A DNA stretch of 54,338 bases from the NCBI GenBank assembly GCA_018524725.1, contig JAEUWP010000538.1, positions 1 to 54,338 of the forward strand. Direction: 5' to 3'. The DNA comes from Podaxis mareebaensis (lineage: Eukaryota; Basidiomycota; Agaricomycetes; Agaricales; Agaricaceae). The position numbers and the translations under genes were made by a program. This document shows, in pieces, positions 1 through 49,375 of the stretch (positions are counted from its first letter, which is position 1; each line of letters begins with the position of its first letter). The notes under the pieces are model-generated. The model had not been told where the DNA came from. It saw only the letters and a program-made list of their open reading frames with translations, and did no database searches.

Positions 1-1534
1 GTGATGGTAGAGGACATCACTGAAGCAAGTGGAATACATGCTGGGGAAAAACTCCCCCACAATTATCCCCATATCCTCGAGGAGATTCCCTTGAGGACAA
101 GAAATGAAGACCACAGGGAGAAACTTCCCTGTCCACAATGTTACGGCCATAATAGTTTTCAGTTATGAAAGCAGTAACTGGATTAGAATATAATCAATTT
201 TTACAGCTAAGATAACAGACTATGAACTTACACTAGAAGTGACCTCAGTACCTCGCAAGGATTCCCCAGTAGTTAGTCTAGGCACCTAGATTGGGAAAAC
301 TGTACCAACTAGAAGTATCCATATGCCGTTGACTCAATACTCTTATTGAAGTTAGGACTATATTACTGAAGAATATTTACCAATCCCATCCTCGCGAAGG
401 ACCTTTATCGCACAAGCAATATCAAGGACTGCCTCATTCAGTAGTATGCTTAGCTGCCACTATGTATCCAAAGGCTCAGCTTGGCTATGGCTTCAGCAGA
501 TGAAATCTGAGTCAGAAGAAAGACCACCTAACTGAGGGATCGACACATCATCTCAGTAGATGAGATTCACTAGTCTTGCAAAGACATCGGCCATGCAAAT
601 CATTAACCGCTGATGACCCAAAGCAGCCCCAGACGCGGGAATGAAGGTTTATAATACTATCGAGTCAGGAATGATGAATGGTATTACACATACAGTAGAT
701 TTGGTCAGCAAAAGCTGATAGTTATCATATGCACGTACTTTACCAGTTCATGCATCCAGTAGAAATGCATACGCGTCCATTATCAGAGCACCTTATTGGA
801 TAACGAATAGTGTAGATTATAAATTATATGACTCTGTACTTGTATGTGTAATCACTTGTTGAGTCAGAATTTTGATTGTAATCATCCCTACTTACAATAT
901 AAAAAGTCCCCTCGATGACACGAGGTAAAGCAAGGGAATTCCTGCTGAGCTTCGCTTAGAGGGTTGTTGTGTATTCAACAACTAATAAGTGATAGTTAAA
1001 GCATCTATAAGGGTTTTCTTCGGTTGATGCGACCTACTAGCGAAAAGCAGAACATAAGAGTCAGTAGTTCCCAGAAGTTTCCATAAGTTGAGAAGTCAGA
1101 GATAGTCTTAGTAGGACTAGCTAGAAATACATCGCAGCTGCGTACCGACGGTCAGAAGGACTTATCGATACGAGTCAGTATATTACTAGTTGTAGTGAGG
1201 AAAGGTTCTTGCTACTGTGATTTCTTTAGTACTTATAAATTGTAGTGACACTACGAGAGAGACTCCTTCCCTAGAATGAACAGTCTTAGTTTGGCTTTGA
1301 ACTAGGAAAATCATAGAGGCCATCTCGCAACAGCATTCTATAAAAAACTTCGTGTTCCTTGAAAGTGCAAAGCACATAACATACCCCCCCATTCCTTCAC
1401 AACTCCCCATTTCTCGCAAAACACTTCGTTTTTGCATTTCTAACTACCGTTTTCATTCTGAACCAGAGTCCCCCACAAACTTGTTAGGGTGTGGTTTTTT
1501 GTGATACTTTTATTATATTTCTATACCACTTTAA
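1..1534. other. Unassigned stretch, possibly LTR-like
   Basis: I see no convincing gene. A short frame is open from 1 to a TGA at 166-168 and holds a CPQC motif, but it is too short to judge. A TATA-like tataaaaag lies at 898-906 with a purine-rich stretch after it, the kind of layout seen in LTR promoters. Small perfect hairpins occur at 113-132, 277-290 and 550-566, as in the element that follows. It does not match the LTR at 8759-8999, so it is not that element's 5' LTR. Confidence 0.3.
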
Positions 1535-4500
1535 CAAAAACACATTTATCAAAAGTACCACAAATTAGCTGCCCATCAACAATATGTGAGTGAACCTAAA
1601 TTTCACCCTATCATCTCAGTTGAAGACGAGTTACTAGCTTGTCAAAAGCGAGGACCACCAGCCCACAAACAGCTCATCGAAACACCAGTCGTCAAGGCAA
1701 TGTACAACTGGTACTATGACCTGTGGATGCCTGATGAATGGAACGCCATGGTATCAGGCATCTGGTCAATGAAACGACCTGCAGACAGACACCCACTGTC
1801 TACAGGATATACTCCAAGCAGTGTGGACAATATTGTCCACACAGAGGAATTCACCAGGATAAGATATCCCGAGCAGTCTCTCAGGGATTATATCTGTAGT
1901 TTGACAGTCGTCCGTCTACCAATGGAAGATGACTGCATGAAATGAATTGAGGACACGCATGCTCAATTCGAAACAAAGAAACCACCCGATAATCCAGGTG
2001 ACCAGAACCAGTGCAAAATACTGCAGATTAAGCAGCAGTTGATGCATGACTACCATGATATGATGCAAGGAACACCATCTCACCTACCTCCATTCCGAGA
2101 GGTGAATCACAAGATTCACCTCATTGAGGAGAACAAGCAATATAACTATTGCTTGCCCAGATGCCCACAGTCATTACGGGAGGAGTTCCATGCAAAACTC
2201 AACTGTTACATAGACATGGGGTGGTGGGAACCCCACAATGTCATGCAAGCAGCCCCTTTGCTATGCATCCCCAAGAAGGATGGGCAACTGTGTACAGTCA
2301 TCGATGCAAAGGAGCAAAATGATAACATGGTAAAGGATGTAACTCCTTTACCTGATCAAGAAGTAATCTGAGAAGATGTGGCTAGAGCGAGGTATTGCTC
2401 TAAGATCGATCTAGCTGACACATATGAACAGATTAGAGTTCGACCCAAGGATGTGGAGAAGACTGCCTTCTCCACCATTGCGGGAACATATGTTAGTAAC
2501 ATCATGCAGCAAGGGGACTGTAATGCCCCTGCCACATTCCAAAGATTGATGACGGCTATTTTTAGAGACATCATCAGCATATTCATCTACATATACCTGG
2601 ACAATATATTTATATTCTCTAATTCTGTGGAGGAACACGAGCAGCATCTACGGCTCGTATTAGACTGACTCCACCAACAACAGCTCTACATCAAAGAGTC
2701 AAAGGTAGAACTGTATGCAGACCGAGTGGACTGTCTTGGTCATATAATAGACAATAACGGTATCCACCCTGATACCGATAAACTATCCCAAATCCATGAG
2801 TGGAGAATTCCTTGCAACTATAATGACATGCAGAAATTTGTTGGACTCATTAACTACGTGTCCAACTTTCTGCTGGATATAACTGCATATACTGGCCCGT
2901 TAATGGCCATAACGCAGAATGGAACACCATTCCACTGGTGACTGTTACATCAGAGATGCTTCTATATGATCAAATGCATCTGTTGTAAAACACCCATGAT
3001 CTGACCAATAGATCCAAAGAATGGAGAACCCATATGGGTTATCTGTGATGCTTCGAAAACCAGTGTCAGTGCCATGTATGGACAAGGCCCCAGCTGGGTG
3101 GACTGTTGCCCAGCAGGATTCATGTCCAAAAAATTCTCTGCAGCACAGCAGAACTACACTGTGCATGAACTCGAAACGTTGGCTATCCTCGAGGCACTAC
3201 TGAAGTGGGAGGATAAGCTGGTGGGTTACCGAATCCACATCATTACCAATCATAAGGCACTTGAGTTTTTCAAAACTCAATCAAAATTGTTGAGCCGACA
3301 ACAACAATGGCTTGACTATATGTCAAGGTTCAACTTTGACATAACATATGTCAAAGGAGAATGCAACAAGATTGCTGACTGTCTCTCGTGATACTACGAG
3401 AGTGATCGACTGGGGGAAGAGCACCCCAGTGGGGAGTACATACAGGCTGACTTTCATATCAACCCCAAAGGGGATGACTTGCCAGCACCAAGAAGAGCAG
3501 AGATACAACATCTGCAAGACTGACTGGCAGCTATAAATGATGAAGGAGTCAGGAGAAGTGCCAGACTCCAAGAAAAGCGCAAACAATGAAATATTGGAGC
3601 TGAAGAGCTTCAAGAGGCAGCTGCCCTCCGTGCTGTAAAACCAGATACTGGCTGAGTGAAACGCTCAACACAAAAATGCAAAACCAAGGGAATAACCCTT
3701 GGTGAGTCACTCTCTGCAACTAGCAACTCTGCCAGTTTCACCATTGGGGATGACTTCATTGACAAAGTCATTGCTGGATACAATGCAGACTCATTAATGA
3801 GTATAGTCAAACAATCCCCAGAGAAGTATAGAGACTTCTCTGCAGATAACCGAGGAGTGATCATGAAGAAAACTCCCCTAGGAGACTGAGTCATATGTAT
3901 TCCAAATGACAGGCAACTCATAACCCAGGTACTGATGAAGGCCCACAAAATTGTGGGACATCTAGGTGACCAATGGACGGCAGAGTACGTCCACAGATGG
4001 TACTGGTGGCTGTCATTGGTAAAAGATTGTCACAAGTTCTGTGGAACTTGCAAAACATGTGCTCGAACCAAGACATCGAACACAAAACCCAGTGGAGAGC
4101 TACACTCTCTACCAGTTCCTACCAAACCCTGGGACTCAATTGGGATGGACTTTGTTGGTCCATTCCCAGAATCCAGAGGCTTCAACTATCTCTGGGTAGT
4201 TATGTGCTGAATGACGAGCATGGTGCACTTAATACCAGTGCACACAAAAATGACAGCGTTGGAGCTGTCATGGGTTTACGTACAAGATATCGTATGCTTA
4301 CACAGTCTACTGAGCTCGATTGTGAGCAATCAAGACTCGAAATTCACATCCACCTGGTGGAGAGAACTCCACAAGATATTAGGAGTGAAGCTCCTAATGT
4401 CAACTTCTTTTCACCCTCAAACAGATGGCCAGACTGAGCAAATGAATTGCAATATCAGTCAGATCTTCCATGCAACGGTACACTATGACCAAACTAATTG

Positions 4501-5272
4501 GGTCAACAAAGCACCATTAACCGAGTTTGCAATCAACTCGAGCATCTCGGCTACCATGAAATATGCCCCATTCAAGTTGAATTACAGATATATGCCATCC
4601 ATGATCCAGGACGGCTGCAATGCTGAAACCATCCACAAAGGGATAAAAACCTTTGCAGAAGCAGTGCTGCTAAACTTAGCAGCCGCCCATGACACAATAA
4701 TAGAATCACGGGTTTTCCAAACCCACAATGCCAACAAAAAATGAGGGCCAGAACCTCATATTGAGAAAGGAGACTTAGTCTACCTTTCCACACAGAACCT
4801 CTCGTTACCAAAAGACAGAGCTTGAAAGCTCTGTCCAAAGTTTATAGGACCCTACAAGGTCCTAGAATTGAAGCCAGAGACTTCCAATTACAAATTGGAA
4901 CTGCCTCCAGCATTATTATGCCAGAAAATCCATCCAGTGTTTCATGTAAACCTTCTGAGGCCATACCATGCCTCAGATGATACATTATTCCTGGAGTGAT
5001 CACAGCCTGAGCCATACGACTTTGGGTTTGACAATGAGCACAAATGGTTCGTCAAAGAGATCATAGGCCATCGGTTTACCAATGATGGTAAAATCAAATT
5101 TCAGGTCCAGTGGAGTCTGGGAGACACCACTTGGGAACCAATACAACACTGCGAAGAACTCACAGTGTTGGATAGGTACCTGGAGCTGCAAGGGGTGTCA
5201 AAGGTTCAGCAACTTCGACCCCAATCACAGCCTACCAGAAATGGTAGGTACAAATTGGGTCGAAGAGATTAA
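1535..5272 (+). pseudogene. Element A: Ty3/gypsy pol (RT, RNase H, integrase, chromodomain), decayed
   Basis: A single reading frame runs from after a TAA at 1532 to a TAA at 5270-5272, broken by internal stops that are mostly TGA. Domains in order: RT (PKKDG near 2271; catalytic box near 2595), RNase H (CDAS near 3045, NHKALEFF near 3249), HHCC integrase zinc finger (3935-4065), integrase core (MDFVGPFPES near 4145, DGQTE near 4423) and a chromodomain at about 5050-5190. There is no ATG at the left end, no gag and no DSG/DTG protease motif, so the 5' part is missing. Two catalytic positions are damaged: the RT box reads YLDN instead of YLDD, and the integrase second Asp reads SNQ instead of SDR. 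Both fit loss of a CpG. The pol stop lies in the loop of a 9-bp hairpin (5257-5281). Confidence 0.85.
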
Positions 5273-5341
5273 CTTCGACCCTGAATATATTACCAACGGC
5301 GACTTGCAAAAGTCACCTCTTCTCTCCCTACAACCACCACC

Positions 5342-8300
5342 ATGAACCCCCAGCACCTGCAACAACCACAACAACCAACTGCCATGCCTCAGCAGAGTAG
5401 CACAAGTGGCTCTGCACCATCAACATTCCAAGGACCTTGGACAGGTCCTGGGAGGGGGAGGGAGTCAATGGACACGACTTCAGACCCCATTCCAACATTT
5501 ATGAGTCAGCCTGAGCATCAGCAAGGGCACCAAGACCCTCATTGTGCCTTACTGTCAACAATACCAATGTCGATGTCTCAACACCCACAATTCGAACAAT
5601 GGCCGAATCAACAATTCAGCCACCCTCCATTCAATCCATATCTGCAGGGTTACCTGAACCCTGCATACTACCCTCCACCACTGCCAATGCTCCATCATCC
5701 AATGACAATGCCTTATCATCCCTATCACGCATCGCTGCCACTGCCAACTGCACTTCAGTTGGCACACCACCACCACTACCCAACTGCACTGAGTGAATAC
5801 ACTCGGCAACTACCTCACCCTATGCCCTCAACAATGGCCAGGCTGTCAAGAGCCAAAGGCAAACAATGCGCATCGGAGCAAGATTTGCTCCACCAACAAT
5901 ACAAGGAACAGAACTCGGGCCTTGTATCCCAATTATGTGAGGTCAGACTAAACAACCACCTCATTGACATGATCGACCTGTTCAACGAGTCGATCAATCA
6001 AGTTCTCAACGAGCTCGTTGAGATTATACAAAATAAAAATGCACACATCAGCATCCTCAAAGGATGCCTCCACCGCCTCAACGATACACTCTCCGCCTTA
6101 CAGCAATTGAGAGAGTATGAGCTCAAGGCCACAATTCGTGTGTCTAAAAAGAGGACCTTATCTGGTTCTCTAACACCTCCCAGTGGAGCCACCCCAGCTC
6201 CACTACAACAGCAACAACAACCTGTGTTGAGCTCATCAGCTCGACCTAAATCATATGCTTCAGCTGTGAGTAATGCAATGACTCACACATCATCTACATC
6301 TTCCAAAGTGAGCACCGGTAGTGCTCGCTCATCATCCTCATCCTCAAAGGCAGGTACACAAACCAAGCTACCACCTGCCACCTCCAAGAAGGTGAGTGCT
6401 CCCAGCACTCGCCTAACCACAACTTCCTCCAAGACTAGTGCACCTAGCACTAGTCAAGAACCAACACCTGTCAAAAAGTCATCCAAGTGAAGGTGACAGG
6501 ATTCACCCATCAGGACAACTGATGAGTTGGTCACCCAAGAACCGGATGTCATGCTCATCTATGATGATGTCCCGATGGACAACACCCTGCTCCTGCTGAC
6601 AACCACTTCTGAGCAGTCATCGCATATTGAAGAACTACCATTGGGACCTGGGATTCCAGGTCCCACCTCCCCCACATGCAACTACGGACCACTCATTTTG
6701 GTCTGTCTCCCCACCAAACTTGAGGACACTCCTTGAGTTGTCCCCAACTACCTCACACCTGAGGACATGACACCCATGTCCTCCAGTGAGGAAGAAGACG
6801 TGGCTGAAGACTTCAAACCCAAGAAGGGTAAGAAGAAGGCCCCTCAATTGTCGACCTCTAGGTCAACATCTCGACCAATTATCCACAACCTGCCAGGTTG
6901 TAATGGCATTATTCTGTCCATGTGGGGACTATGGCAACACAGCCAAGTCCATAGTCATGAATGTGACAACAGCATGCGGAACATGTTATCGCAGTGAGTT
7001 CATTACTCATGACGAACCAATACTGTGTTTGCCAGAGCCACTGCCACCATCGCCGCAATGATGGAATACAAAGGCTGGGAGTTTGAAATCCTGGCCACTC
7101 ATCCAGTTTATAAGGCAGCCCGTTGCAGACTGCCTATGACACCCTGTGAAGTGGAGAAGCTGATCAAGCTTCTCAATAATCATCACACCAAAGCCAAGCA
7201 TTGAGCTGAGACACACCACCTCCTGACTGAGCTATACAAAATAGCTCAGCACATGGAGGAAGAACACTATGATGATGCAATGATCTTCCTGTTGCACCAT
7301 AGTGGCTTCTGCCCGGACACACACCTGTCCAGAATAACCACCGAGATCAGGGAAGAGCACCAACTGTCACGAGCATACGAACAAGCTCATGTCTCAAACC
7401 CCAAAAATCAGACCCAGGGCATGGGTTTCACCCAGCCCACGGGAGCCGGCCTCTTCAATATCAACCATCTTGGTCAATATCTTCTTACTCATAGCCATCT
7501 GGGGTCCAACAACCCTGTCAATGGTATCTTGTTTGAGCATAGACAGCTTGTACATCATCAAACCACTTTTGGGTATGGCCTAGCTCACTTCTTTGGGCCA
7601 CCTGAACATGGTCCTAATTGTGCAGGCCAGGTGAGATTCACCTGGCTTTTTGCTGTCCTAGTCACATCACCATGACTTTATAGAGAGTATATTGAGCATT
7701 GGAATGCTTGGCATCCTGAACACCCCTTTGTCCCACAACCAGGACCAATGTGTTACTTCTGATCACTTGACATTGATGATAGTCAAGTGCCAAACATGAA
7801 CCTCGACACCATTGCCGAGGTTCTCATCCACAATGGAGTCGACCCGTCCTGGGTCAACCATGCTTACCTATTTGGGATCCATTATCTGGATCAATCCTAT
7901 ACTGGTGAACCTAGTCACCAGTCCATGTATCATGACTGGGACGACGAACACATCTGTCGTCTTGACCTATATGGACCACCTCCAGCCATCAAGAGATGGG
8001 ACAGATGGTTCTACCCCAATGACCATGACCTTCTCAGGTCATATTTCTTCGAACAACAAGAATTCCTTCGCACCGGGAAGGAAATGCAAGATGACCCTGG
8101 CTGGCTAAAGGCCAGGGGCCCCACTCACTTCCACCTTCTAAGCAAGTGGGAGTACCCCCCACACCTGCTCAAGCCCCCAACCACACCTGCAGTTGATGGG
8201 CCCAGCAATTTGACTCTGCCTGTTGCATCCAATGAGGCTCAGGTCAAGGATCACCCCTCAATTGAAGCCTGACCGATGGAAGTTGATCGCCCCTCCATCC

Positions 8301-8407
8301 TTCATCCCGAAAGTGAGTCATCACCCACCGACACATCTGACGACAATATTGCATCATCAAGCAGTTCCACACCCAGGGCTGGGGGAATTTCATTACCCCC
8401 TGCCTAA
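5342..8407 (+). pseudogene. Element A: large post-pol ORF, function unknown
   Basis: It begins with an ATG 69 bases after the pol stop and stays in one frame for about 1,022 codons to TAA at 8405-8407, interrupted by TGA codons (first at 6488-6490). The first 382 codons are uninterrupted: a Gln/Pro/His-rich N-terminus, a predicted helical section (about residues 200-265) and a Ser/Thr/Ala-rich basic tail. Later parts are acidic (SSSEEEDVAED near 6780), then helical, then Trp/His/Pro-rich, and end in a Ser/Asp-rich tail. I recognise no known domain, no signal peptide and no membrane segment, so an envelope protein is unlikely. Position and strand match the third ORFs of elements B, C and D. 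It may be a gag-like or RNA-binding protein, but that is a guess from position. Confidence 0.65.
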
Positions 8408-8746
8408 CTTCCTATCGACAACAGGGGAGCGACCTAGTTGCTCCACCATATAACTATCCCCGTCAAGTCTCATGACTTGATCCCACTTGTATCCTCTTCC
8501 AGGCATCACTGCCTGGCCCCTACCACAGTCAAGTCTCATGACTTGACTTCCTTCACACCTGGCCGAGGGACTTTACCCCTTCGGCCTCACCAATTATTAA
8601 AACTGTATCTGAGTGACCTAGTCATCTCGGCCATATACCCTATACCCTAAAACCAAGCATCTTATTCATCTCGGACCTATACCCTATCATACACGACTAT
8701 TTATTAATCCTCTTCTCTCTCACACCAAGAGACTGTAAAATGGTCT

Positions 8747-8756
8747 GGAGGGGGGG
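8747..8756 (+). other. Polypurine tract of element A
   Basis: A run of purines (GGAGGGGGGG) lies two bases before the LTR at 8759. This is the expected place for the plus-strand primer of an LTR retrotransposon in + orientation. Confidence 0.7.
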
Positions 8757-8758
8757 TG

Positions 8759-8999
8759 TGTAAGGGCATGCCCTTACACTTAATTCGAAAATCAATTAAC
8801 CCATGTTTTTGTGTTATATTTTGCTATCAGTCTTGTTTACCCATCACTCCATCACATGTTTGTATCTACTGTTTATTAGGGCACCTCAGTTGTCAGTGAC
8901 AACCGACCTTTGCTTGTGCCACATAGTCTCCCAATAAACAGGTTTGAACTATTTGGTGTGAGTGTGAGGTCTTCTAACCATAAAGCATAAAGCTTTACA
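8759..8999 (+). repeat. Element A 3' LTR (241 bp)
   Basis: It starts TGTAAGG and ends CTTTACA, a near-perfect terminal inverted repeat, right after a polypurine tract. It holds a polyadenylation-like AATAAA at 8933-8938. Its first bases form part of a 22-bp perfect palindrome (8758-8779). No second copy is visible in the window, so the boundaries rest on the termini and the tract. Sequence from 9000 on belongs to element C1. Confidence 0.65.
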
Positions 9000-14947: not shown

Positions 14948-15253
14948 AGGTCTTCCCCCTCATCATCCTCTGTATCATAGCTAGCTCCCCACTCCTATTT
15001 CTTCCCATTTCTTCCCAATTCATTTCTTTTCCGATTCATTAAGTTAGTTTCACTCTCTCATCATCTCGCTTCTCTAGCGTAGTTCGTATACTCCTAGCTC
15101 ATCTCTTTTTCCCTACTTTCTTCTCCTTCTGTCTCTTTCTCTCTAGTTTCAGTATTGGGACTGCTATCGTGCACCCATTTGTAGTAGCTAGGCTATTGCA
15201 ATAAACATCGATTTAAAAAAAAAAAAAAAAAAAAAAAGATAGGGCCGTCTGTG

Positions 15254-18704: not shown

Positions 18705-21062
18705 TCAGCATGAAAAGGATAATGCAGAAAGAGGACCAGGCTTAGTGGGATAAGCAGTGTGGAAATCAGCTACAAGCTCTGCAGCATGCTCTAACTCCAT
18801 TGCGGGTAGCCAGGAGGATTCTTCTTCTGTATCCTCATAACCCAACCAGATCACCTTGTATAATAATTTGCAGGCTCTTCAATGATCAATCTTCGAATCA
18901 ACAATCCGGGCAATTTCGTACTCGGGTTCGCCGTCAATAATGATCAGAGTGGGAGCAGGTTCAGTGCGATCTGGAATAGGATTTGGCATTGTGGGTTCGA
19001 GCATAGAGACATGGAAAACTGGGTGAACTGTGTGCATGGAGTCGGGTAGCCAAATTGTGAATGAATGAGTACCAGCCTGAGCAATAATTTCATAGGGACC
19101 AAGGTATTTTTTGGAAAGCTTCTTTGAAGGCCTCGTAGTGTGGAAGAACTGTGCCTTGATGAATACCTTGTCTCCGACCTTAAAATCAGGTGCAGGAGTG
19201 CGACAGGAGTCGGCGGAGACCTGGTATCTACGCTGGGCATGAGCAATTTCAGATTTAAGAGTAGCATGAAGCTCATCGAGATCCACAGCGAATTGGCAGG
19301 CACGGGCAGAAGCAAGATCACATTTGGGGTGAACAGTAATGTTCAGATGGTACCCCTTGTTTGCGAAAAAGGGAGAGATACCAGTAGTAGCACTTGGGGC
19401 GTTGTTGAATGCGAATTCCACAAGTGGGAGAAGTTCGGCCCAGTTGTCCTGTTGATAATTACAATAGATCAGAAGGTATTGCTCCAATGTCTGGTTCATG
19501 CGTTCTGTCTGTCTGTCACCCTCTGGATGATATCCAGAAGTGAAGTGGAGCTTCATATCAAGTGCTTGTCTGAGGGAGCGGAAGAAGTGTGAAACAAATT
19601 CAGAACTGCGGTTGGAAGTGATGTGTGAAGGGACACCGTGTTTGGAGAATACATGTAGGACAAAAAGACAGGCGAGTTCCACGGAAGAAATGGTATCATG
19701 GGTAGGCACAAATATGGCTTGCTTCATGAGGCGATCAACTATGACGAGGATGGTATCGAATCCGGAAGAGGAAGGAAGCTTTTCGATGAAATCCATAGAA
19801 ATGGAGTCCCAAGGTTGTTCAGGGATCGGAAGTTGCTTGAGGTTCCCATACAGTTGATGATGTTGAGGCTTGGATCGCATACATGTAACGCAGCTCTTGC
19901 AGAAATCCTTGACGAAGTTGCGGATTCCGGGCCAAGTATAATCACGCCGGATGAGTTCCAGGGTCTTGTTTTGACCAAAATGTCCAGCCAGGGCATGATC
20001 ATGGTGGTATTGCAAGATGCCGAGATGGAGATTGCCAGAGTCAGGTACATAGATCCTGTCATCGAGTCATAAAAAGCTGTTGGAGTCTACAGACCAACAT
20101 CCTTCGGGGTTTGCGAGGTGCTCAGCTGCGATCAGGTCATTAGGAAGTGTGGACAGGATATCAAAATGAAGCTTAGCAATGTCCATAACCACAGCAGTGT
20201 GAAGGGTCGGAGTGTAGAGGTAGGTGGCACAAATGGAGGTGGAAAGCTGTTCTTGGGTGAAGATGGGTTGGAAATTGTGCAGATTGACTGTAGCATAGTC
20301 ACTATTCCCCCCTTTTGGATAGACGTCCCATCATCTAGTCAAAGCGTCAGGCTTCGTTCCGAGGCAACCAGGGTGGAAGCAGATGACAAGGTTGAACTGG
20401 GAAAGGAACTCAGACCATCAGGCCTGGCGGCGGGTTAGGATTTTTGTCATACAGAAATATTCAAGGTTCTTGTGATCCGTAATGATGTCAATCGGAAGTG
20501 CCGATCCTTCCAGGTAATGTCTCCAAATGTGGAAGGCTTCAAAAATAGCCAGAAGTTCCTTGTCATGGGTGTCGTAATTCAACTCGGATGAGGTGAACAT
20601 GCAGGAATGGAAGGCAATGGGGTGGATGTCACCATCGGGAGCAATGATGGAGAGGATAGCAGTTAGTGCATAGTTGGATGCATCAGTTTCAACAATGATT
20701 TGAGAGTCTGGAATCCAATGGGTGAGAACCGGGGTGGTCGTAAAGGCTTTCTTGAGTGTATTGAATGCTTTGTGGGCTTCTTCACTGAAGTTCCATGGTG
20801 TGCCCTTTTGGGTAAGACAAGTGAGTGGAACAACAATATCGGAATAGGCATGGATGAAGCAACAATAGAAATTAGCAAACCCAAGGAAGGATTGAATATC
20901 CTTGACCTTTTTCGGTTCAGGCCATTCCTGGATGATCTTGACCTTTTCCTCGGACATCTTGAGGCTGTCGGGCAACAGGATGTAACCAAGGTATTCTACT
21001 GACTTGGAATGAAATTCGCATTTGTCTGCATGTGCATAAAGGCCATGCTGATGAAGACGCTT
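18705..21062 (-). pseudogene. Element E pol, second half (RT end, RNase H, integrase, chromodomain)
   Basis: It follows the LINE insertion in the same reading frame once the LINE and one duplication are removed. It has the RT thumb (FLGFANFYCCFIHAYSD), RNase H (ETDASNYALTAIL near 20680; TDHKNLEYF near 20470), HHCC zinc finger (H-X-H to CKSCVTCMRSK near 19900), integrase core (MDFIEKLPSSSGFD near 19795) and a chromodomain at its end (EPEYEIARIVDSK near 18910, then WLGYEDTEEESSWL). Stop TGA at 18705-18707. The four or so internal stops are TGA at Arg positions. The integrase second catalytic Asp reads SNR instead of SDR, so this copy should not integrate. Confidence 0.88.
20303..20314 (-). other. 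Possible central polypurine tract in element E pol
   Basis: The 12 bases tattcccccctt on the + strand are identical to the 3' polypurine tract (17193-17204). On the coding strand this gives AAGGGGGGAATA within the RNase H-integrase linker (PKGGNSDYATV). Such a second tract could prime another plus-strand start. Confidence 0.45.
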
Positions 21063-22574: not shown

Positions 22575-22900
22575 CTTGCAAGAAACGGAGTTCCAGATGT
22601 TCACTGGAGGTCTTCCCCCTCATCACCCTCTGTATCATAGTCAGCTCCCCGCTCCTATCTCTTTCCATCTCTTCCCAACTCTTTTCTTCTACGATTCGCT
22701 AAGTTAGTTTCACTCTCTCTTCTCGTCTCACCTCTCTCATGTAGTTCGTATACTCTCGTACTTCTTTCATCTCTAGTTCCTTTCCCTCTTTTCTTTTTCC
22801 TTTCTCTAGTTTCGGTATTGGGACTGCTATCGTGCACCCGTTTGTAGTAGCTAGTCTATTGCAATAAACGTCGATTTAAAAAAAAAAAAAAAAAAAAAAA
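21078..22900 (+). mobile_element. LINE copy 2, 5'-truncated, in element E pol
   Basis: It is flanked by a perfect 15-bp target duplication (21063-21077 and 22901-22915) and ends in poly(A) after GCAATAAACGTCGATTT. It is opposite in strand to E. It reaches slightly further 5' than copy 1. It retains many CpGs, so it is one of the younger insertions. Confidence 0.94.
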
Positions 22901-24285
22901 GAGGACTTCCTGGACATGTTTGTGGTGCTCAGAAGGGTTATTGGAATAGATTAGGATGTCATCCAAATAAATGGTAATGCACACATCATGCAGGTCCTTG
23001 AAGATGTCATTCATAAAACGCTGGAAGGCAGCAGGGGCATTGGTAAGACCAAATGGCATTACAAGCCATTCAAACGAGCTGTAACAGGTACGGAATGCGG
23101 TCTTCCATTCATCACCCTTGGCAATGCGGACCAGGTGGTAAGCATGACGGAGGTCTATCTTTGTATAAATGCAGGCCTTGCGGGGAGAGTCAAGAAGGTT
23201 GGAAATGAGGGGAAGTGGATAGTGGTCTTTCTTTGTAATCTGGTTGAGACCTCGGAAATCGACACAGAGTTGGAGGGATCCATCTTTCTTCTTGACGAAA
23301 AGAACAGGAGCACCATGAGGGGAAGTGGAAGGGCGAATAAAACCAATTGACAGGTGTTCGTCAATGAACTCCCAGAGCACTTCTAGCTCGACCTGTGACA
23401 ATGAATAAATCATTCCAACAGGGGGCGATGCACCTTCCTCAAGATTGATGTGAAGATTGAAGGGTCTGTGAGGAGGAAGGGAATCGGCACAGGCCTTGCT
23501 AAAAACGTTGGCAAATTCGTGATATTCCTCGGGAACATTTGAAAGGTCGATGGTGTCTGTGGGGGAAGCGGAAGCAATGGAAACAATGGAATGGAGGTTG
23601 AGGGTGAATCTATACGATCCAGGGAGGCATGAAGCATGCATGAATGCAGCGGCATTGATGAGACAAATGTCCAGCTTCGTGAGGGAAGGTGAATCAGGAA
23701 CAGGAACGGAGACCAGATCTAGAGAGGTACCCAAATCGGGAACTGGAGATCCAGTGGAGACAGAGGATGTGCGAACAGGGACAGATGGGGCAAGATCTGA
23801 ACTGCCAGAGGTACGGAATGTGATGCAGCCTGTGACCCAATCAATCGATGGATTGTAGTGGGTGAGCCAGTTGTGTCCAAGAACCACTGAGCAAGCTGAA
23901 TCAAGCTGGGTAACATACAGGACAAGATTCATTGATTCACCAGATTCAAAGTTTACAGGGATAGTAGCAGATTGCATAATAAAGGAGTTAGACGAGCCAT
24001 CAAACAGACGAAGTTCAACCAGAGGAATGGACGAGGTAGGAATTCTGAATTTGCACACCAGGCTGGAGTTGATGAAACAGTGAGTGGAACCACTGTCAAC
24101 GAGTGCAGATACAACGAAGGGAGAAGAGGAATCAGGAGAGAGAAGCAAAGGAGAGGTGAAGGAGACATAGAGTGCATGCAGGTCGGAAAGAGTGGACGTG
24201 TTGAGTTGGAAACTCTCTGGTGCACAGAGGAGCCCAACACGGTCCCCAGTCTGTGCTGAGTTCTGAGGACCGCTTGCTATTTTTT
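22901..24285 (-). pseudogene. Element E pol, first half (protease, RT core)
   Basis: It is in the -1 frame relative to gag and starts within the gag end at the A6 run. Open without a stop to the LINE junction. It has the aspartic protease (LVDSGSTHCFI near 24090, then VVLGHNWLTHYNPSIDW), the pre-RT segment (PPHRPFNLHINLEEGASPPVG near 23440) and the RT fingers and palm with FVKKKDGSLQLCVDFRGLN near 23280 and the intact catalytic YLDD (IYLDDILIYS near 22965). Interrupted by LINE copy 2 right after HVQEVL. The undamaged protease and RT agree with E being the youngest LTR element in the nest. Confidence 0.9.
24277..24285 (-). other. Probable -1 ribosomal frameshift site at the gag end of element E
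   Basis: On the coding strand the gag ends AAA AAA TAG (A6 at 24280-24285, stop at 24277-24279). The pol frame is open across this point exactly one base back. A slip on the A6 run would bypass the stop and make gag-pol. Confidence 0.55.
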
Positions 24286-25837: not shown

Positions 25838-26508
25838 TGTTACATTCTGGACAGTTCTGGAGATTCGGAGAGTGGACCCTTGGCCTCAGTGTATGTGCTG
25901 TGCCCCTCCAATACTGCACGGGGTCCGATTTGGCTGCTTGGAACTGTGACAGAAGATAATGGGAAATACAGGAGATGTCAGAGAACAGAGGGGGGAGCAA
26001 GTCCTGAAGGTTTGGATGACGAACAGGAGGTTAGGAAGGGTAAACGAAGTCGATATTCTGATTGGGGAGCGAGATACAAGGTAGTTACGCTTAAGTACAT
26101 GTCGGAAAGTGATACGGATAACTAACTAAGAAACCAGGAGACAAAAGAAGCAGATTTACAGGTAAAGAACATTTACATATTGGAACTACAAATGGAAAAA
26201 TGGAGAACACACAAAAATGCAAATCATAGTATAAGGCAAAGCGGAAAGTAAAGTAGACATCAGGGAATGAAGATAACAATTTCCGGGAGTGCTGATAGAT
26301 GTACGAATGGACACCACGCATTGCATTGGTTGTAATCGACCGTGTGAGTGCATCCACCCATTCAGACAACAGGACGGGGGATCCTGACAAGGAAACGTGA
26401 GTGGAGGGAGCGGGAAAGCATCGGACTTGATCAGAATCAGATCTTCAGATTTTCAGAAACATGCACGGATTGTAAGTGTGGAAACAGATACTCAATGTGG
26501 ACTTGACA
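25838..26508 (-). repeat. Element E 5' LTR (671 bp)
   Basis: It is the partner of 16521-17191. The 11 bases at 26053-26063 are repeated in inverted sense just outside the LTR (25825-25835), so the RNA of this LTR can pair with its own primer binding site (AATCAGAATAT with ATATTCTGATT). No convincing TATA box is visible at the matching distance. Confidence 0.92.
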
Positions 26509-29500
26509 CAGCTTCTCAGATATTTATAATCCAGTTCATTCTTTCTTCAGCCGATGGGGAGTTCATCGGTGCTAGCTTGGTTGGGAAGGCTTTGAGAGGA
26601 TGGCCATACATGAGTTCAAATGGTGTTTGCTGGCAGTTGGCATGTGTTCTGGAATTATGGGAGAATTTGACTAAAGGAAGGTGCTCGGGCCAGGTGTGGG
26701 GGTTTTGAGCGCAATAGGCTGATAAGTACATCTTGATTTCTTGATTAAATCATTCAGTTGATCTGTCTGATTGGGGGTGATAGACAGTAGAGGGGGCGTG
26801 ATCGATATTCAGCTTCTTGAACATAGCTTGTATCGATTTGGCCATGAATCGGGGATCTCTGTCCGAAATGATTTTGTTGGGTATTCCTGTGTGAATGAAC
26901 ATGTGTTTAATCAAGATGTCTGCAATTTGATCAGCAGTGGCAGATTTGGAGGTGGGTACTATGATTATCCCCTTTGTAAGACCATGGTCCACCACAGACA
27001 ATATTGCGTCATATCCATCAGATTTGGGGAGGTCTGTAATGAGGTCCATGGACATCTGGGCGAAAGGCTGGGATGATCAGGGACCTGGAATCGGTTGAAG
27101 AGGAGGCTTCAAGGGTCATCTATTGATTTTGTATTGCTGGCAAGTAGGGCATCCTTTCATGTAGTTCATGACATAGGTGCGAATGCTGGGCCAGGTGACA
27201 TATTCTTGAAGTTTCCTGAGGGTTTCAGTGACTCTGGGGTGTCCCACAGCTGGTGCATCGTGTACACACTGCAATAAGCGCTTCTTAAGCGTGGAGTCCA
27301 TGGGAAGTTGGATATGACCTTCTTGGTCCAATTCAATGGTTCCATCCTTTCCTTTTTGGGCTTCATTCTCAACATCAGGGTCCACAATGTTGATTTCATT
27401 GTTTTCTCCTGAGTTAGCCAATTTTGCATTAGCATGGGTAAAGTTGCTAGCTTGGAACTTCTCTAATGGAATGGCTGCCTTTGTTGTTTTGAGCTCTGTG
27501 TCTTTACTTGTCGAGGCATGGTCCGGTCTTCTGGACAAAGCATCAGCAGTGCAGTTCTTAGATCTGGGAATATGTTGAATCTTGATTTTATGGGTGCTGA
27601 TCACAGCAGACCATCAAATGGTTCATCTTGACAGTTTTGATGGCTTGGCCCAATGAATGATGTTGTCATGATCTGTCCATATTGTCATTTTGTAGGGTGA
27701 TCCATTGATGTAATGACACCATTCTTGTAATGCACAGATGATGGCTAGGAATTCTTGTTCTGATGCGTGGTAATTCTGTTCAGCTGGGGAGAATGGTTTG
27801 GAATAGTAGAAGCATGGGTGTAGCACACCATTTGAGTCTTTCTGGAGGAGAACTGCTCCAGATGTGTAGGCGGACACATGTTTGAATTTCAAATGGTTTT
27901 GAAGGATCTGGGGTAATTAAAATGGGTTCTTCCAGGAACCGTTGCTTTAATTTTCTAAATGCATTGTCAGCTTCTTTTGTCCACTTGAAAGGAGTGTTGG
28001 ACTTCTTTAGAAGTGTGTTGAGGGGTAAGGACAGGTGGGTGTAGTGCTTGATGAATTTGCAATAGAAGTTACAGAACCCAATGAATTTCTGTACGTCGTG
28101 GACTGTCTTGGGTGTGGGCCAATCTGCTATTCCTTTTAGTTTGGCGGGGTCCATCTTGACTTCATTGGGAGAAATGATGAATCCAAGATAGGTGAGAGTC
28201 ATCTTTTCAAATTCACATTTCTCCAGTTTGAGGTAAAGATCATGTTTCCACAAGATCTTGAATACTTCTTTTGTCATTTTTCATAGTTCAGCTTTGGTAG
28301 GGGCGTGGATAAGGATATCATCCATGTAGATGATAACCTTGTTTTGCACAATAAGAGGGGCGAGGATAGTGTCCATCATGTTTTGGAATGTCGCGGGGCT
28401 ATTGCACATTCCAAAAAACATGACTGTGGGTTCAAATAATCCTCGATGAGTGCAGAAAGCTCCTTTCCATTGGTCTTCTTCAACAATGCGGACATTGTTG
28501 TAGCCGAGTCTGATGTCGAGTGCGGTGAAGTATTTTGAACCTCGTAATTTGTCGAGTATGGATTGTATCAAGGGGATAGGATAGCTGTTTTTGACCGTGT
28601 GTTTGTTGAGGTAATGATAGTCTTGACAAGGCCTGAGTTTTCCATCTTTCTTTGAGATGAAGAAGAATGGTGAGGCCATAGGTGACTTTGAGGGTCTGAT
28701 ATATCCTTTTGCAAGGTTTTCTTCGAGGAATTTGTCAAGCTCCTTTTCTTTGGCAAGAGAGAGTTTGTAGGAGGGGAAAGCTTTTGGTACGAAGCTTTCT
28801 TTGGTTTCAATCCAGTGGTCCCATTGTTGAGCGGGAGGGAATCTCTTGCTTTTCTTTTGTGAGAAAAGATCGAGATATTCATGGAACTCCCAGGGAACTA
28901 TCTTCTCGGGATCGGTTTCCTTTTTCTGTTCTCCTGCTTGTGCAAGTATTTGCGAATAGGAGGTTTTGGCGTTTATCTTGGTGAAGTTTTCCTCAGAGAA
29001 ATCTTCTTCAAGCTTGTTCATGTAGATTTCTGAAAGAGTGTCATCGATGATCGAAGAGAGTGTGGTGTTTTCCATCAAATGTCTCCATGAAAGGGTTCGT
29101 TTTGACCAATCAATATCGGGGTTGTACTTGGTGGGCCAGGGAATCCCTAGGATTATTCTAGGTCATCCTAGATTAATCACTTGCAAATCCATCTTCATTT
29201 GCTTCCCATAGATAGTGAAGTCAAGGGTAATAGAATGCGTGATTTGCTTATCTTTGTTCAGGGTTCCATCAGCATTCCTGACTTTGATTGGTTTCTTTAA
29301 TGGTGACGTTTTCAGGTTCCATTTTTCAACCAACCAGTGGTCGATGAAATCTTGTCCTGCTCCGGAATCTATCAGTGCAAGGTCTTCCACAGATTTTTCA
29401 GAGAGATGCATGGTGATGGGGCAATAAAAGGTGTTGGATTGGTGAGTCTTTAAACATAATTCAGAAACGGGTACTTCATTCTGTGAAAGAGAAAGGGGCA

Positions 29501-29640
29501 TAACTTCGTCCTTTGGATGGGGATAAGAGTCGGAAACCAGTCTGTTAGAGAACAAAAAGGGGGAAGAAAAGGAATTGTTCTTTTGTGCATCTTTCTTTGC
29601 TTTAGACGATCTAGACGTGGAAGCTAGTCGTCTGAGGCAA
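26509..29640 (-). pseudogene. Element D pol, main part (protease to integrase)
   Basis: It is in the +1 frame relative to gag. Protease LIDSGAGQDFI near 29365; RT with FFISKKDGKLRPCQDYHYLN near 28655 and YMDD near 28325 (IYMDDILIHA); RT thumb FIGFCNFYCKFIKHY near 28070; RNase H starting near 27890, where a two-base deletion shifts the frame and removes the first catalytic Asp motif; TDHDNIIHW near 27665; HHCC zinc finger (CPTCQQYK near 27130); integrase core MDLITDLPKSDGYD near 27045 and an intact SDRDPRF near 26860. A few stops are present, mostly TGA, one TAG. Element E interrupts it after NSPSAEERMNWIINI; the end is at 16520-16031. Confidence 0.87.
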
Positions 29641-31035
29641 AATCCTGGATCTCCTTTGCTTGAGGGCGACTTCCTCGTTGTCTGCTTCCTGAATTATCTC
29701 GTTGATCTGAGCAAACATGGCTTTTCGCTTTTGCTGTTTTTCCTTGTCGTGGGGCAGTTTAGGGGGTATGGGTGGCTTATGCTTGGAAACCTTTGCTTGG
29801 GCGTTTCGTGGTAGATTTCATGTCGATTGTGGTGGGTTCGATTTCTTTGGACATTCCTGAGTGAAATGTCCTGTTTGGCTGCAGTTGAAACATTTCCCTT
29901 GCTTGAGGTCATTGCGCATTTTTGGGGTGAGGATGTTCTGAAGAAACATCTCCAGGAGGTCTTGATTTTCTTCAACCTCATTAACTTCTGCATTGGATTC
30001 TTCTTCCAGGGAGTAGTCTTCTTCAAGCATGATTTCAGAGAGTGCCAATGCCAAGTTATCCACATCCATGGTGTATGGATCTTTATACACCTGGCTTCAT
30101 GACCAATTCGTATTGTAGGATGCCTTCTTCTTTGGTTGGGGTAAAGCTCTATTGGTTCATTCTCAGGCATGGCTAGCTTGATAGTTGTTCTCCATGCAGT
30201 GTTGTTCTTCCACTGCTCTCACTGCTTCAAACCAGATGTTGATGTCGGGTCTGGGTCTGAGGGCAATGGTTTTGAGACCAATTTCGAAGTCCAGTCCTTC
30301 TCTGAACTGGTAGATAAGTTCTTGTGGGTTGACCATCCCTGCTTGGGTTGCAAGGACTTTGAACTCAGAGATGTACTGGTCCACTGGTCTTCATTTCTGC
30401 TTGAGAGCATGGAGTCATTGGAGAGCGTCTTCAGTGTAGTTGTAAGGGAGGAAGACTGTTGAGCTCGTCTTGGAATGCATTGAACGTCCCGAGATGCAGT
30501 ACTCCATTGAAGTTGTGCTGGCAGAGGTACTCAGTTTTCCATGGTTCCACTGCTCCTCCAATGTAGTAGAGCATGAATATGATGGCATCATGGTCAGTAG
30601 GGAATTTATGCTGGTTGGTGATGATGTACAGGGCACACTGCTGCTTCCATGCCAGGTACTTCCACAGGTCTCCATCATACAAGGGTGGCGCCTTGTATTT
30701 TGGTGTGGAAGGGGCAGCAGGCATTTGTGCTTGTTGGGGGAAGCTGAAACCTGGTGGGGGTGCTCCTGGTTGTCCCGGTGCGGGAGGTCCTGGGGGTGGT
30801 GCTCCTGGTGGTCCTGGTGGTGGGTTTGGACCTGATTGTCCTGATCCTGAAGGGGGTCATCCAGGCGGAGGTGGTCCAGGAGGTGGGTGAGGGCTTCCTG
30901 CTTGTGGCAGGTTTGTTGGCTGAGCTGCTCCAGTCTGAGGTGAGTTTCCCTGATTTCCTTGTACAACTCCAGTTGTTTGATGTCCAGGAATCATGGGGTT
31001 AGTGAAGAGGGTTGTTGGAAGAATCTCTGGTTCAG
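29611..31035 (-). pseudogene. Element D gag, main part
   Basis: After LINE copy 3 the frame gives a helical stretch (LYKEIRETHLRLEQLSQQ near 30960), then a Pro/Gly-rich part with a frameshift, a capsid-like domain (YDGDLWKYLAWKQQCALYI near 30680; DQYISEFKVLATQAGMVNPQ after a second frameshift near 30390) and one CCHC zinc knuckle CFNCSQTGHFTQEC at about 29905-29865. A TGA in place of an Arg codon lies at about 29818, and the frame then runs to TAG 29611-29613. Several frameshifts and stops make it non-functional. Confidence 0.75.
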
Positions 31036-31051
31036 GGGTACGATATTACTT

Positions 31052-31618
31052 TTTTTTTTTTTTTTTTTTTGATCATCATTTATTGCAATAGACTAGCTAC
31101 TACAAATGGGTGCGCAATAGCAGTCCCAAGAGCCAAAACCTACAGACATGAGAAAGAAAAGAAAGAAAAGAAGAGAGAAAGAGAAGTGAGGAGGGGAGTG
31201 AGGGAGCTAGCAAGAGGCAACCAACACAAGATAGAGAGTACAACTAATCAAACATGGAGGGAGAGAAGAGACGAAAGTGAAGTGAGAGGGGAAAGATGGA
31301 GCTAGTGAGAGGCAAGCGTATATAGGGTGAGAGAGAGAGAAAGAAAAGAAAGAGACCCTTTAGTGAACATCCAGAGCGCCATGAAGAGCCAGCCTCTCTC
31401 GTTGAGTAAGCCATCAAGTGTTGTAATCCTCAAAGGTTATAGGTCCTTGTATCTGGTCAGCGAAGGAAAAGGCCACCGGGTTTTCACGAAGGAACTCGAT
31501 GAGCCAGAAGATATTCATATGACTACCATAAGGCCAGTGATAGAGGGGACAGTGATGGATGATGTGGTCCTGCATCTCAAGTTCCTCACCGCATGGGCAG
31601 GAGGTGATGTAGCACCCT
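31052..31618 (-). mobile_element. LINE copy 3, strongly 5'-truncated, in element D gag
   Basis: It is flanked by a 16-bp duplication (31036-31051 and 31619-31634), with a poly(T) run at its left end (the poly(A) tail in reverse). It holds the 3' UTR and the last 65 or so codons of the LINE ORF, with CPCGEELEMQDHIIHHC. Same family as copies 1, 2 and 4 but with a different 3' UTR, rich in GAGAGA on the + strand. Same strand as D. Confidence 0.93.
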
Positions 31619-31858
31619 GGGTACGATATTACTTCCAAATGTGAAGGTGGCGGCTTGGTTGACAGGTGCCATGGAGTCTGTTCTAGGAACTGGTGGTTGC
31701 AGTTGTGGGGGTGGTTGAACTGATTGTTGGGGAGCAGGAGTAGGGTGTTGAGATGGTTGTTGCTGATATGGGGGTGGAATTGAGGCTGCACTTGGAGGTC
31801 AAGCGAGTTGCTGAGGTGGTTGTACAACAGCAGGAGGGATAGTGACAGTGGTCGACAT
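31619..31858 (-). pseudogene. Element D gag, N-terminal part
   Basis: The likely start is ATG 31856-31858 (MSTTVTIPPAVVQPPQQ), which gives a Pro/Gln-rich N-terminus typical of Ty3/gypsy gags in this window. One TGA at about 31800. It joins the frame at 31035 when LINE copy 3 and one duplication are removed. An alternative minus frame from 32154 is open for 246 codons but starts with TTG and looks less gag-like at the end, though its first part could also be coding. Confidence 0.55.
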
Positions 31859-32531
31859 TTGTTGTCTTTGTTCTCTAGCTGCTTCTCTTCTTCCTCTAAT
31901 ATTGGCAGTAAGTCGCAGCTCCCAAGGGGCAACTTCATTGAGGTTAAGAGATCTGACTCTTCTCGGAGGTCTTGTTCTGGCTGGAGATATGATAGGCGAG
32001 ATTGGGGAGGCTGAACATCGAGCTGTTTTGTCACTGCTGTCAGAATCCTGGGCTCTAACTCATTCCAATAAGGTGGCTGCTTCTCCTGAAATGGTGAGGG
32101 GAGTAGGGGAGTGGTAGGACATTCAAGGTTCCTCTCGACAAGGGCTTGAATCAATTCCTGAATCTGGTTGGGTGTAAGGTTGAGGTGTCAAAGGCTGGGG
32201 GGAATTAAGGAAGATATAGAAATATTGTCCTGCGAGGAACTCCAGGAAGATGATAAGGTAGAATAAATAGAAGAACAGTTGTATGATTGAGGGCTGTTGA
32301 TTTCAGATGATCGAGAACTTCTGTCAATTTCCATTGATCGAGAACAGTGTTCAATTTCTGATGATCAAGAATGCTTCACCTTGACAAATGTCGATGCAAT
32401 TTACAGTCAGAGGGTCTTCTTCTGACAGACCACCAAACATTGAGTGGGCATATTACAGGCTTCCTTGCCAGACCACCAAACAACGAGTGGGTGAATTACA
32501 GTCAAGAAGGGGGGGGTTTGGTGTCATTTAG

Positions 32532-32633
32532 GCACAGCATGAAGCAATGAGAACCAACAATGTCCTGATGGCACAGCATGAAGCAATGAGAACCTCAGGG
32601 TGACTACACACACAGCGCGAAGCAATGAGAACA
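32532..32633 (-). repeat. Three tandem repeats of about 39 bp in the element D leader
   Basis: The units start at 32532, 32571 and 32610, and each holds a nearly identical 22-24-base core ending GAAGCAATGAGAAC. The third unit has CGCG where the others have CATG, a CpG difference. Confidence 0.8.
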
Positions 32634-32677
32634 GTAGTCAGGGTGAAAAGTTACAACGTGGGATTGGCACATGAGGG

Positions 32678-32689
32678 AAGTCTAATCTT
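32678..32689 (-). other. Primer binding site of element D, self-priming type
   Basis: In the direction of the element AAGATTAGACTT starts two bases after the LTR. It is the exact reverse complement of AAGTCTAATCTT at 32999-32988 within the LTR. A TATA-like TATATG (33027-33032) lies about 30 bases upstream of 32999, so the RNA should begin with the matching 12 bases. This is the Tf1/sushi arrangement. Confidence 0.72.
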
Positions 32690-32691
32690 GA

Positions 32692-33472
32692 TGTTACAAG
32701 GTTCTTCTTTGGCTAAGTGATGCCTAAGTTGGAGCCTATCCTTGTAAGTGAGACAAGCAGAGGTCCTTGTCCTGTACAGGTCTGAAGGAGCTGCTCTGTT
32801 TAACCTCAGGTGGCTGTTCACATTGTCTCTAGGCAGTGAACTCGTGTTGATCGCACACTCCATAGGACAAGATGTTGATGAGAAGCCTGAGAGGGAAAAG
32901 CTGCACACAAGGGTGAAGAGATGTAGGCTTAAAGTGGTACTAATGCTCAAGGACTTATTCAAGTACCAAGAGGAGGTAACACACTTTAAGATTAGACTTG
33001 GCTAATCTACAAGTCCAGGCGGTGTACATATACTAAGTCCTATGACTACTTTAGGAAGTAGATCAATAGTAGCATAAAGGTCGAATAAGGGGAATGTATA
33101 TAGAAAAGGGAATTCATAAGGCATATGGGCATAAGACAAAAGTCTGTGTGAGCGAACATAATTGATGCAAGCATAAATATGACAGAGGTGATGAAACTTA
33201 TACCTGGTCCAAATATAGAAGAGTGTCTAAGAAAGGAAATAGTAAGTTTAGCATTCAATCACAGATCATCATCGCATGGAAAGTATACTCCGTGGTAGCA
33301 ACATGCTTTGTCTACTTTCTCACACATTTCCCAATCAAGTGTCTGTCGCAACTCCGTGGTTTCCTGCCAGAGGCTTACCATCATGTGCTTCATCAAATCC
33401 CATTCTTTGTAAGTCTGCTCCTCTGTCTCTTCAGTCTCCTTGGTGATCTCGGAGTCTGCAATATTCGTAACA
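32692..33472 (-). repeat. Element D 5' LTR (781 bp)
   Basis: Partner of 11869-12649. With a start at about 32999, U3 would be 33472-33000 and R-U5 32999-32692. The TATA-like element is at 33027-33032 on the minus strand. Confidence 0.92.
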
Positions 33473-48710: not shown

Positions 48711-49375
48711 TGTTACACTCCTCTAGTCTCCATCTATGCTCATGCCACCCTTTTACCAACTGTCTTCTGTCTCATCTTCTGCCTCTCTGTCACACCTTGC
48801 TTCCCCACTGCCTTAGGACTTATCCTTGTCTTGTCTCAACTCTCATCTCAGTCATCAGTCTCACCTCAGATCTTTCAAAGCTATGCTATACTTAGTACTC
48901 GGGCTCAGTGACACCTTGTATAATAATAGTCCACCTTCTGTAGATCTCATCTTACCTCAGGCTCAGTCTACTATACTTAGAGTACCAAAGTAACTACAAA
49001 GATTCTCCTTTAGGATATGTAGAATAGCAATTGCTCTCATATTTAGATAGCTCATAAAGTAAGTAGAACTTAGCTTTACAATCATTTGTACATAGTACAA
49101 GAATAGTGAGGACTGTCTTCCACTTTATCTTCTTGCTGCATGAGAGCTCTACCTGCCTTGACAGGATAACTGGTGTAACAGCTAAACCTACAGAGTAGCC
49201 TGTGACCTTACAAGTTGTATCTCTCCCTAGGCAGTCCCTGCAAGATTTCCAACCAGCCTCTAGTTCTCTCAGGAGAACAGATGGGTATTCCACATCAGGA
49301 ACTTTATAGTGTTGAGTTGTCTTAGGACAGTATCTCTCTGCACTGAGACAACATCCATACTGTCTCTATGTAACA
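48711..49375 (+). repeat. Element C2 3' LTR (665 bp)
   Basis: It starts TGTTACACTCC and ends CTATGTAACA; compare 44059-44714. Sequence of an old LINE begins at the next base. Confidence 0.87.

Follow-up and report, generated by a model that had tools for sequence, protein, structure and literature searches.

The closest described relatives of the element reported here are Ty3/gypsy retrotransposons of Agaricomycetes. Element A lies at the start of a 54,338-nucleotide stretch of Podaxis mareebaensis DNA (assembly GCA_018524725.1, contig JAEUWP010000538.1, positions 1 to 54,338 of the forward strand; hereafter, the window) and, judging from its domains, is a copy of a Ty3/gypsy-type long terminal repeat (LTR) retrotransposon, one that is saturated with short perfect hairpins. 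When the integrase side of the polyprotein of a sister copy, L009 (positions 3299-5269), was used as a query, 3475 protein matches were returned, and all 120 of those listed were Ty3-type polyproteins 45-69% identical to it. The named homologues among the matches listed came from Agaricus, Hypsizygus, Armillaria, Phanerochaete and other mushrooms, with amino-acid identities of 65% for Agaricus bisporus, 61% for Hypsizygus marmoreus and 51-53% for Armillaria ostoyae. These elements share with element A and its relatives (the element A clade) the pol domains, the domain order and the pair of LTRs, but the clade differs in possessing a reading frame of about 980 codons downstream of pol. Hairpin saturation was seen in the element A clade; the homologues were compared as proteins only.

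Some RNA viruses carry ordered RNA structure on a genome-wide scale, and the clade resembles them in having structure along a coding genome and in using silent sites for it. It differs in that its structures are short, perfect, local stems without a preference for G.U over A.C, and in that the element passes through DNA. A second point of comparison is template switching, which is known to homogenise the arms of inverted repeats during copying by DNA polymerases and to occur in yeast and mammals, as two reports describe (PMC8604942, PMC8794818). Perfect short stems, short loops and complementary arms are common to those mutations and to the clade; the mutations described there involve multi-base and compensatory changes, whereas the clade shows single-base gains and the pattern is confined to it. 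Among the literature matches listed, no account of hairpin saturation in a Ty3-type element was found, nor one of genome-wide structure of single-stranded DNA in LTR retrotransposons.

Hairpin excess in one retrotransposon clade

Hairpins were counted as non-overlapping perfect stems of at least 7 bp with loops of at most 10. Positions 1535-8779 contain 56 such stems, compared to a mean of 4.79 and a maximum of 12 in 200 dinucleotide shuffles (a separate run of 20 shuffles included one with 14). The excess rises with stem length, as 33 stems of at least 8 bp and 20 of at least 9 bp are present where 20 dinucleotide shuffles yield 0.75 and 0.2, respectively. Because the window copy is broken by stop codons, codon-preserving shuffles (100 for each piece) were run on the reading frames of sister copies; five pieces of L009 contain 77 stems compared to 5.2 expected, and three pieces of a distant subfamily, D, contain 34 compared to 2.3. 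The dinucleotide and codon shuffles rule out chance, base composition and codon usage as the cause of the stems. The excess is thus real and greater than first claimed: the initial annotation had placed more than 35 stems of at least 7 bp in this region against a random expectation of 3-4, and the 21 stem-loops and three palindromes that it listed all proved exact in their coordinates (24/24), and none of their stems is shorter than 8 bp. Neither of the outcomes named as refuting the observation, counts no higher than in codon-preserving shuffles or an equal density in the other elements, was obtained. One correction concerns positions 140-1571, an apparent insertion with only 2 stems in 1,432 bases; the element resumes upstream of it at 1-139.

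The rest of the window, positions 9101-54338, holds 42 stems, compared to 30, 37 and 38 in three shuffles. Block by block, the observed and expected numbers are 3/4.7, 5/6.4, 9/4.6, 6/4.6, 10/7.1 and 8/3.2 (20 dinucleotide shuffles each), and no block approaches element A, in agreement with the initial annotation, which had not noticed such a density in the window's other elements, B-E; these are covered here as blocks of the window, with dinucleotide shuffles. An unrelated Ty3-type element at 18828-20066 lies in a block without excess (5 stems compared to 6.4). Two blocks, 26501-33000 (9 compared to 4.6) and 49201-54338 (8 compared to 3.2), show a mild excess, and neither is comparable to element A.

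A search of the genome (36.95 Mb, 429 contigs) with a 401-base probe gave 39 matches, and a protein probe gave at least 68 (67 of 397 candidates scored). The copies fall into two sets: group A, whose members are close and include the subgroup A2 (L019, L022, L027, L028) at 79-84% identity, and the second subfamily D at about 65% nucleotide identity to A; beyond these lies a gap, followed by unrelated Ty3-type elements at 32-33%. All 21 close copies fetched carry 5.7-9.4 stems per kb, compared to 0.1-1.1 in shuffled sequence. Five 5-kb stretches of D contain 27, 53, 54, 50 and 43 stems where shuffles give 2.5-3.7, the lowest number belonging to a copy that lacks any CpG in the pol stretch compared, and ten further D pol pieces carry 7.2-11.0 stems per kb. 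In L009 the high density begins at the 5' LTR, with 3 stems in the 1.83 kb upstream, 3 inside the LTR and 11 in the next 1.9 kb. The stems show no regularity of spacing (P = 0.066 in L009 and 0.34 to 0.93 in four D stretches). Within the material tested, hairpin density is a property of a single retrotransposon clade; when relatives were sought in viral contigs, nine stretches fitted a pattern, and none was confirmed.

Two further observations concern the copies themselves. The ratio of observed to expected CpG in pol ranges from 0.0 to 1.0 among L009, L014, L016, L017, L020, L021, L024, L030-L034 and the window copy, and CpG decay provides a usable age scale for copies of the clade. When set against L009, the pol regions of L019 and L022 look alike over the second half in the clusters listed and clearly different over the first part, a pattern suggestive of a recombinant.

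Fitting, turnover, gain and loss of stems

The stems measure 7-11 bp, have loops mostly of 3-7 nt and occur at about nine per kb; GNRA and UNCG loops are rare. Two features of the coding sequence bear on how they were accommodated. First, the 77 stems of L009 are unequally divided among the three codon-position registers, with third positions facing third positions in 11, compared to 34 and 32 in the other two; this register, which offers the least silent freedom, would be expected to be rare if stems are fitted by silent changes. Second, in the integrase-side piece of pol, the residues that at least 80% of 80 homologues share deviate at 0 of 37 sites within stems and at 13 of 197 outside them. 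Together, these counts show that the stems were fitted silently.

When the pol regions of A and D were compared, 6-8 of 30 stem centres coincided where 2 were expected. At some coinciding stems both sides of a pair have changed; examples are 4814-4835 and a stem at about 4032-4051 with an exchange of A.T for T.A. When stem pairs were looked up in the other subfamily, 33 had been kept by a double change, 270 were unchanged and 276 were lost. Covariation, which had been proposed as a check, was examined between subfamilies in this way: against the 33 pairs kept by changes on both sides, pairs broken by a change on one side are far more numerous. Since most stem positions differ between the subfamilies, what is maintained is a density of stems and not fixed sites. 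Compensatory changes among close copies (117 doubles in 6,826 stem pairs) were discarded as covariation, as the 16 hairpins inspected were dominated by TG/CA decay of CpG.

Gains and losses of stems were then assigned to the branches of two trees, one built from 13 A-type rows over 6.7 kb and the other from 21 pol rows (14 D, 7 outgroup), restricted to non-CpG changes; the resulting counts depend on parsimony reconstruction and on weighting over tips. For the expectation, each change was moved to columns drawn at random among those that share its codon phase. On internal branches, 324 changes (246 at third positions) produced 18.2 losses compared to 50.2 expected (0.36) and 14.9 gains compared to 9.1 expected (1.64, p=0.044). 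On terminal branches, 660 changes produced 73 losses compared to 100.9 (0.72) and 21 gains compared to 18.5 (1.13), and the losses of the two branch classes differ (p=0.003). An early event count that used alternative bases as its control (internal gains 6.9 compared to 1.2, terminal 6.0 compared to 6.5) was superseded by this matched null. As internal branches represent the lineage while it was still transposing and terminal branches mostly time spent resident in the genome, the hairpins seem to be kept during multiplication and to decay in settled copies.

The steps by which stems are gained are small. Among 28 internal gain events, two of which may be counted twice (two of the ten gains in the D run fall on A branches), 26 consist of a single change, and the remaining two both fall in a single hairpin, the only one with two changes on one branch. 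No non-CpG compensatory pair was found on a single branch, where coding constraint hides doubles; CpG-type pairs (13 internal, 30 terminal) are explained by CpG decay. Neither arm changes more than the other. The excess, its silence, its restriction to the clade in the material tested, the turnover, the difference between internal and terminal branches and the single-base steps are all shown by these analyses.

Possible selection or foldback copying, and the candidate folded molecule

The explanation that we tentatively favour, at slightly less than an even chance, is that Watson-Crick hairpins are weakly selected, in a distributed manner, in one of the nucleic acids through which the element replicates, most probably DNA. 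The whole internal sequence and the LTRs of the clade would be under weak, spread-out selection for short perfect hairpins, acting on the replicating lineage: a single change, in most cases silent, would be slightly favoured when it completes a stem and disfavoured when it breaks one, and an inserted copy would decay, chiefly at CpG. The candidate folded molecule would be single-stranded complementary DNA (cDNA) during reverse transcription or extruded double-stranded DNA, and the benefit, which is a guess, may be that single-stranded cDNA is kept compact and locally folded inside the particle. By arithmetic, a weak-selection formula with 2Ns of about 1.5 puts gains at about 1.9 and losses at about 0.4 of expectation, so that one selection strength fits both internal ratios. 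A stronger statement is that folding of its own cDNA is what the whole clade is selected for, with all stretches of coding sequence and LTR rewritten as short Watson-Crick DNA hairpins whose positions change while their density does not; we consider this rather unlikely.

Several results weigh against selection. The enrichment of gains is marginal when taken alone (p=0.044), and terminal branches, with losses at 0.72 of expectation, are not fully neutral. The reduction of third-position change within stems is not significant in A or D taken singly, and the relation between copy age and stem density is positive without reaching significance (rho=0.35, p=0.24; rho=0.21, p=0.45). An apparent enrichment of gains among private changes with CpG included (96 compared to 36.5, with 151 losses) was confounded by CpG and disappeared once CpG columns were removed. 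Finally, when selection on folding energy was simulated with the protein and codon usage held, a pol piece brought to the observed mean energy acquired 8-9 stems under RNA folding and 6-10 under DNA folding (largest values 15 and 17), compared to 19 observed. Relative to this model of energy selection, real pairing is concentrated more in perfect stems and spread less broadly, and this excess perfection is the chief point favouring a copying mechanism.

In such a mechanism, the element's own reverse transcriptase would turn the nascent cDNA back on itself and repair almost perfect inverted repeats mismatch by mismatch, leaving hairpins as a functionless mutational by-product. We consider it unlikely, yet it accounts for much: the perfection is strictly Watson-Crick with G.U treated as A.C, the loop sizes are ones that fold back easily, the effect is tied to branches on which the element cycles, and arm-homogenising template switching is known for DNA polymerases, as noted above. 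Compensatory doubles, moreover, would be hard to see, since the partners of silent sites are mostly non-silent. The initial annotation had suggested a templated process or selected RNA structure, and the part of its interpretation which stands is that something beyond chance and codon usage makes the stems and leaves its trace more on internal than on terminal branches. The templated version agrees less well with the data. Gains of almost always one base (26 of 28) disfavour multi-base template switching and speak against the perfecting of whole arms; correction of single mismatches is compatible with them, because it leaves no multi-base changes. Also counting against foldback copying are the lack of non-CpG doubles on one branch, the even share of changes between the arms and the conserved residues, which deviate at 0 of 37 sites in stems; within family A non-CpG variants do not favour stems (gains 23.8 compared to 20.5 and 6.0 compared to 5.4). 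Richness of G in 5' arms, which foldback might produce, looked significant in a small set; it was present in A (192 to 153, p=0.04) but failed to hold in D (114 to 112), and was rejected. That selection rather than biased correction shaped the stems, and that the molecule was DNA, is what we infer.

The initial annotation's other suggestion, selected RNA structure, was the better half of its guess in invoking selection, whereas its RNA part finds less support. Genome-long selection for secondary structure in the sense RNA, which we regard as improbable, draws on local folding energy, which in 60-nt windows is lower than in shuffles by 3.6-4.1 kcal/mol for the plus strand and 3.4-3.7 for the minus strand, with background differences of -0.5 and 0.1. 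Simulated energy selection run to the observed stem number reproduces the loop-size profile, in line also with the selection reading favoured here, and the profile simulated for RNA selection fits. Stem positions, on the other hand, are mostly not conserved between subfamilies, and G.U is not tolerated in stems. In simulations on one pol piece, selection for RNA folding leaves 1.2-2.0 G.T and 0.8 A.C mismatches per sample, whereas selection for DNA folding leaves the two equal. In the real sequences, stems with one mismatch have G.T and A.C in ratios of 29 to 30 in close copies, 4 to 4 in D, 10 to 30 in five young stretches and 18 to 24, the composition ratio, in three young stretches; at shared one-mismatch sites the counts are 5 and 21, or 9 and 32 under a looser rule. 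Stem-breaking changes on internal branches are likewise 5.6 of 18.0 expected toward G.U and 11.9 of 25.4 toward A.C. Strictly Watson-Crick pairing, in which G.U has no advantage over A.C, makes DNA a likelier folded molecule than the sense RNA, from counts that are small and copies that are related. Folding of the minus strand was considered from the A.C excess (30 to 10 and 21 to 5) and set aside, as four of the five sequences belong to one subfamily and the young stretches give 24 to 18; no strand is claimed.

Template switching during host chromosome replication, which the reports cited above place in yeast and mammals, is largely refuted and very improbable as the maker of hairpins in resident copies, since other sequence on the contig, including the Ty3-type element at 18828-20066, is at background and terminal-branch changes break stems and make none above expectation.

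Structure of the element A copy and possible meaning of its hairpins

The features of the window copy are collected below.

Table 1. Features of element A in the window (bp, base pairs; RT, reverse transcriptase)
Feature	Positions	Strand	Remarks
End of protease region, upstream of insertion	1-139	+	Aligns wholly or partly to most close copies, which continue directly at about 1572
Apparent insertion in the element A copy, outside the hairpin phenomenon	140-1571	.	Unmatched in most close copies
pol region (reverse transcriptase, RNase H, integrase) with in-frame TGA stops	1572-5269	+	RT_RNaseH at 3005-3391
10-bp perfect stem, loop 4	2099-2122	+	
9-bp perfect stem, loop 6, conserved RT region	2329-2352	+	Aligned D: nearly the same residues, stem absent
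9-bp stem, loop 2	3261-3280	+	Intact in 16/16 covering copies; shortened form in some D copies
10-bp stem, loop 2	4814-4835	+	D: same place, A.T to G.C pair exchange
Post-pol reading frame, broken in the window copy	5342-8272	+	Open reading frames 5285-6490, 7205-7675, 7763-8272
20-bp perfect palindrome	6004-6023	+	L019, L022: different overlapping 7-bp stem instead
8-bp stem, loop 5	7154-7174	+	Intact in 17/17 covering copies
22-bp perfect palindrome, 5' edge of 3' LTR	8758-8779	+	
3' LTR with perfect stems, start seen, end inferred	8759-8999	+	Matches L009 8790-9034, a member of the LTR pair
Remaining stems of at least 7 bp (range)	1821-8548	+	56 in total, including the palindrome at 8758

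The domain order was established largely from sister copies. In L009, an aspartyl protease (RVP_2) at 395-1408 is followed by RVT_1 and RT_RNaseH (Pfam) at 1412-3295, and an integrase follows the RNase H, as the best homologues of 3299-5269 bear PF17921 and PF00665 downstream of PF17917; window pieces 3970-4437 and 4211-4744 gave no Pfam hit, nor did the frame that precedes the protease (L035, 2126-3970). A 246-bp direct repeat flanks L009 as its LTR pair, with three stems within the match, and positions 8790-9034 of L009 are 98.8% identical to 1830-2075 of L035. The 5' LTR of the window copy lies beyond the contig end. Downstream of pol, L009 has two frames, 5352-7403 and 7407-8303, together the roughly 980 codons mentioned above. 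A homologue search with the first part was empty, the second part has one homologue (a hypothetical protein of Agaricus bisporus H97, 51%), and in Pfam the frame yielded only a sub-threshold match to Prominin (17.4 bits, cut-off 34.3).

The window copy has decayed, with nine TGA stops in 3299-5269, at least four of which are arginine in the sister copy and homologues (CGA to TGA), and with CpG in pol at 0.33 of expectation. The sequence at 140-1571, which has partial matches in L025 and L026, looks like a foreign insertion. Short words that resemble each other border it, CCACAAT to the left and CCACAAA to the right, and might represent a duplicated target site. Elsewhere in the window, copies that end in A runs lie 7.66 kb apart at 15140-15239 and 22803-22902 as parts of 300-base repeats with more copies near 50-52 kb, giving the impression of a long interspersed nuclear element, and a 115-base direct repeat, with units 88% alike at a spacing of 126, occupies 54098-54338, reaching the contig end.

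The origin and persistence of perfect hairpins in coding sequence is an old question, which this clade makes directly testable through the dozens of dated copies that a single 37-Mb genome contains. If the reverse transcriptase makes the hairpins, foldback copying has left in them a record that can be read, and one strong enough to reshape a genome. If they are instead selected at the level of DNA, they point to an as yet unknown step of LTR-retrotransposon replication that needs folded single-stranded cDNA or extruded DNA.

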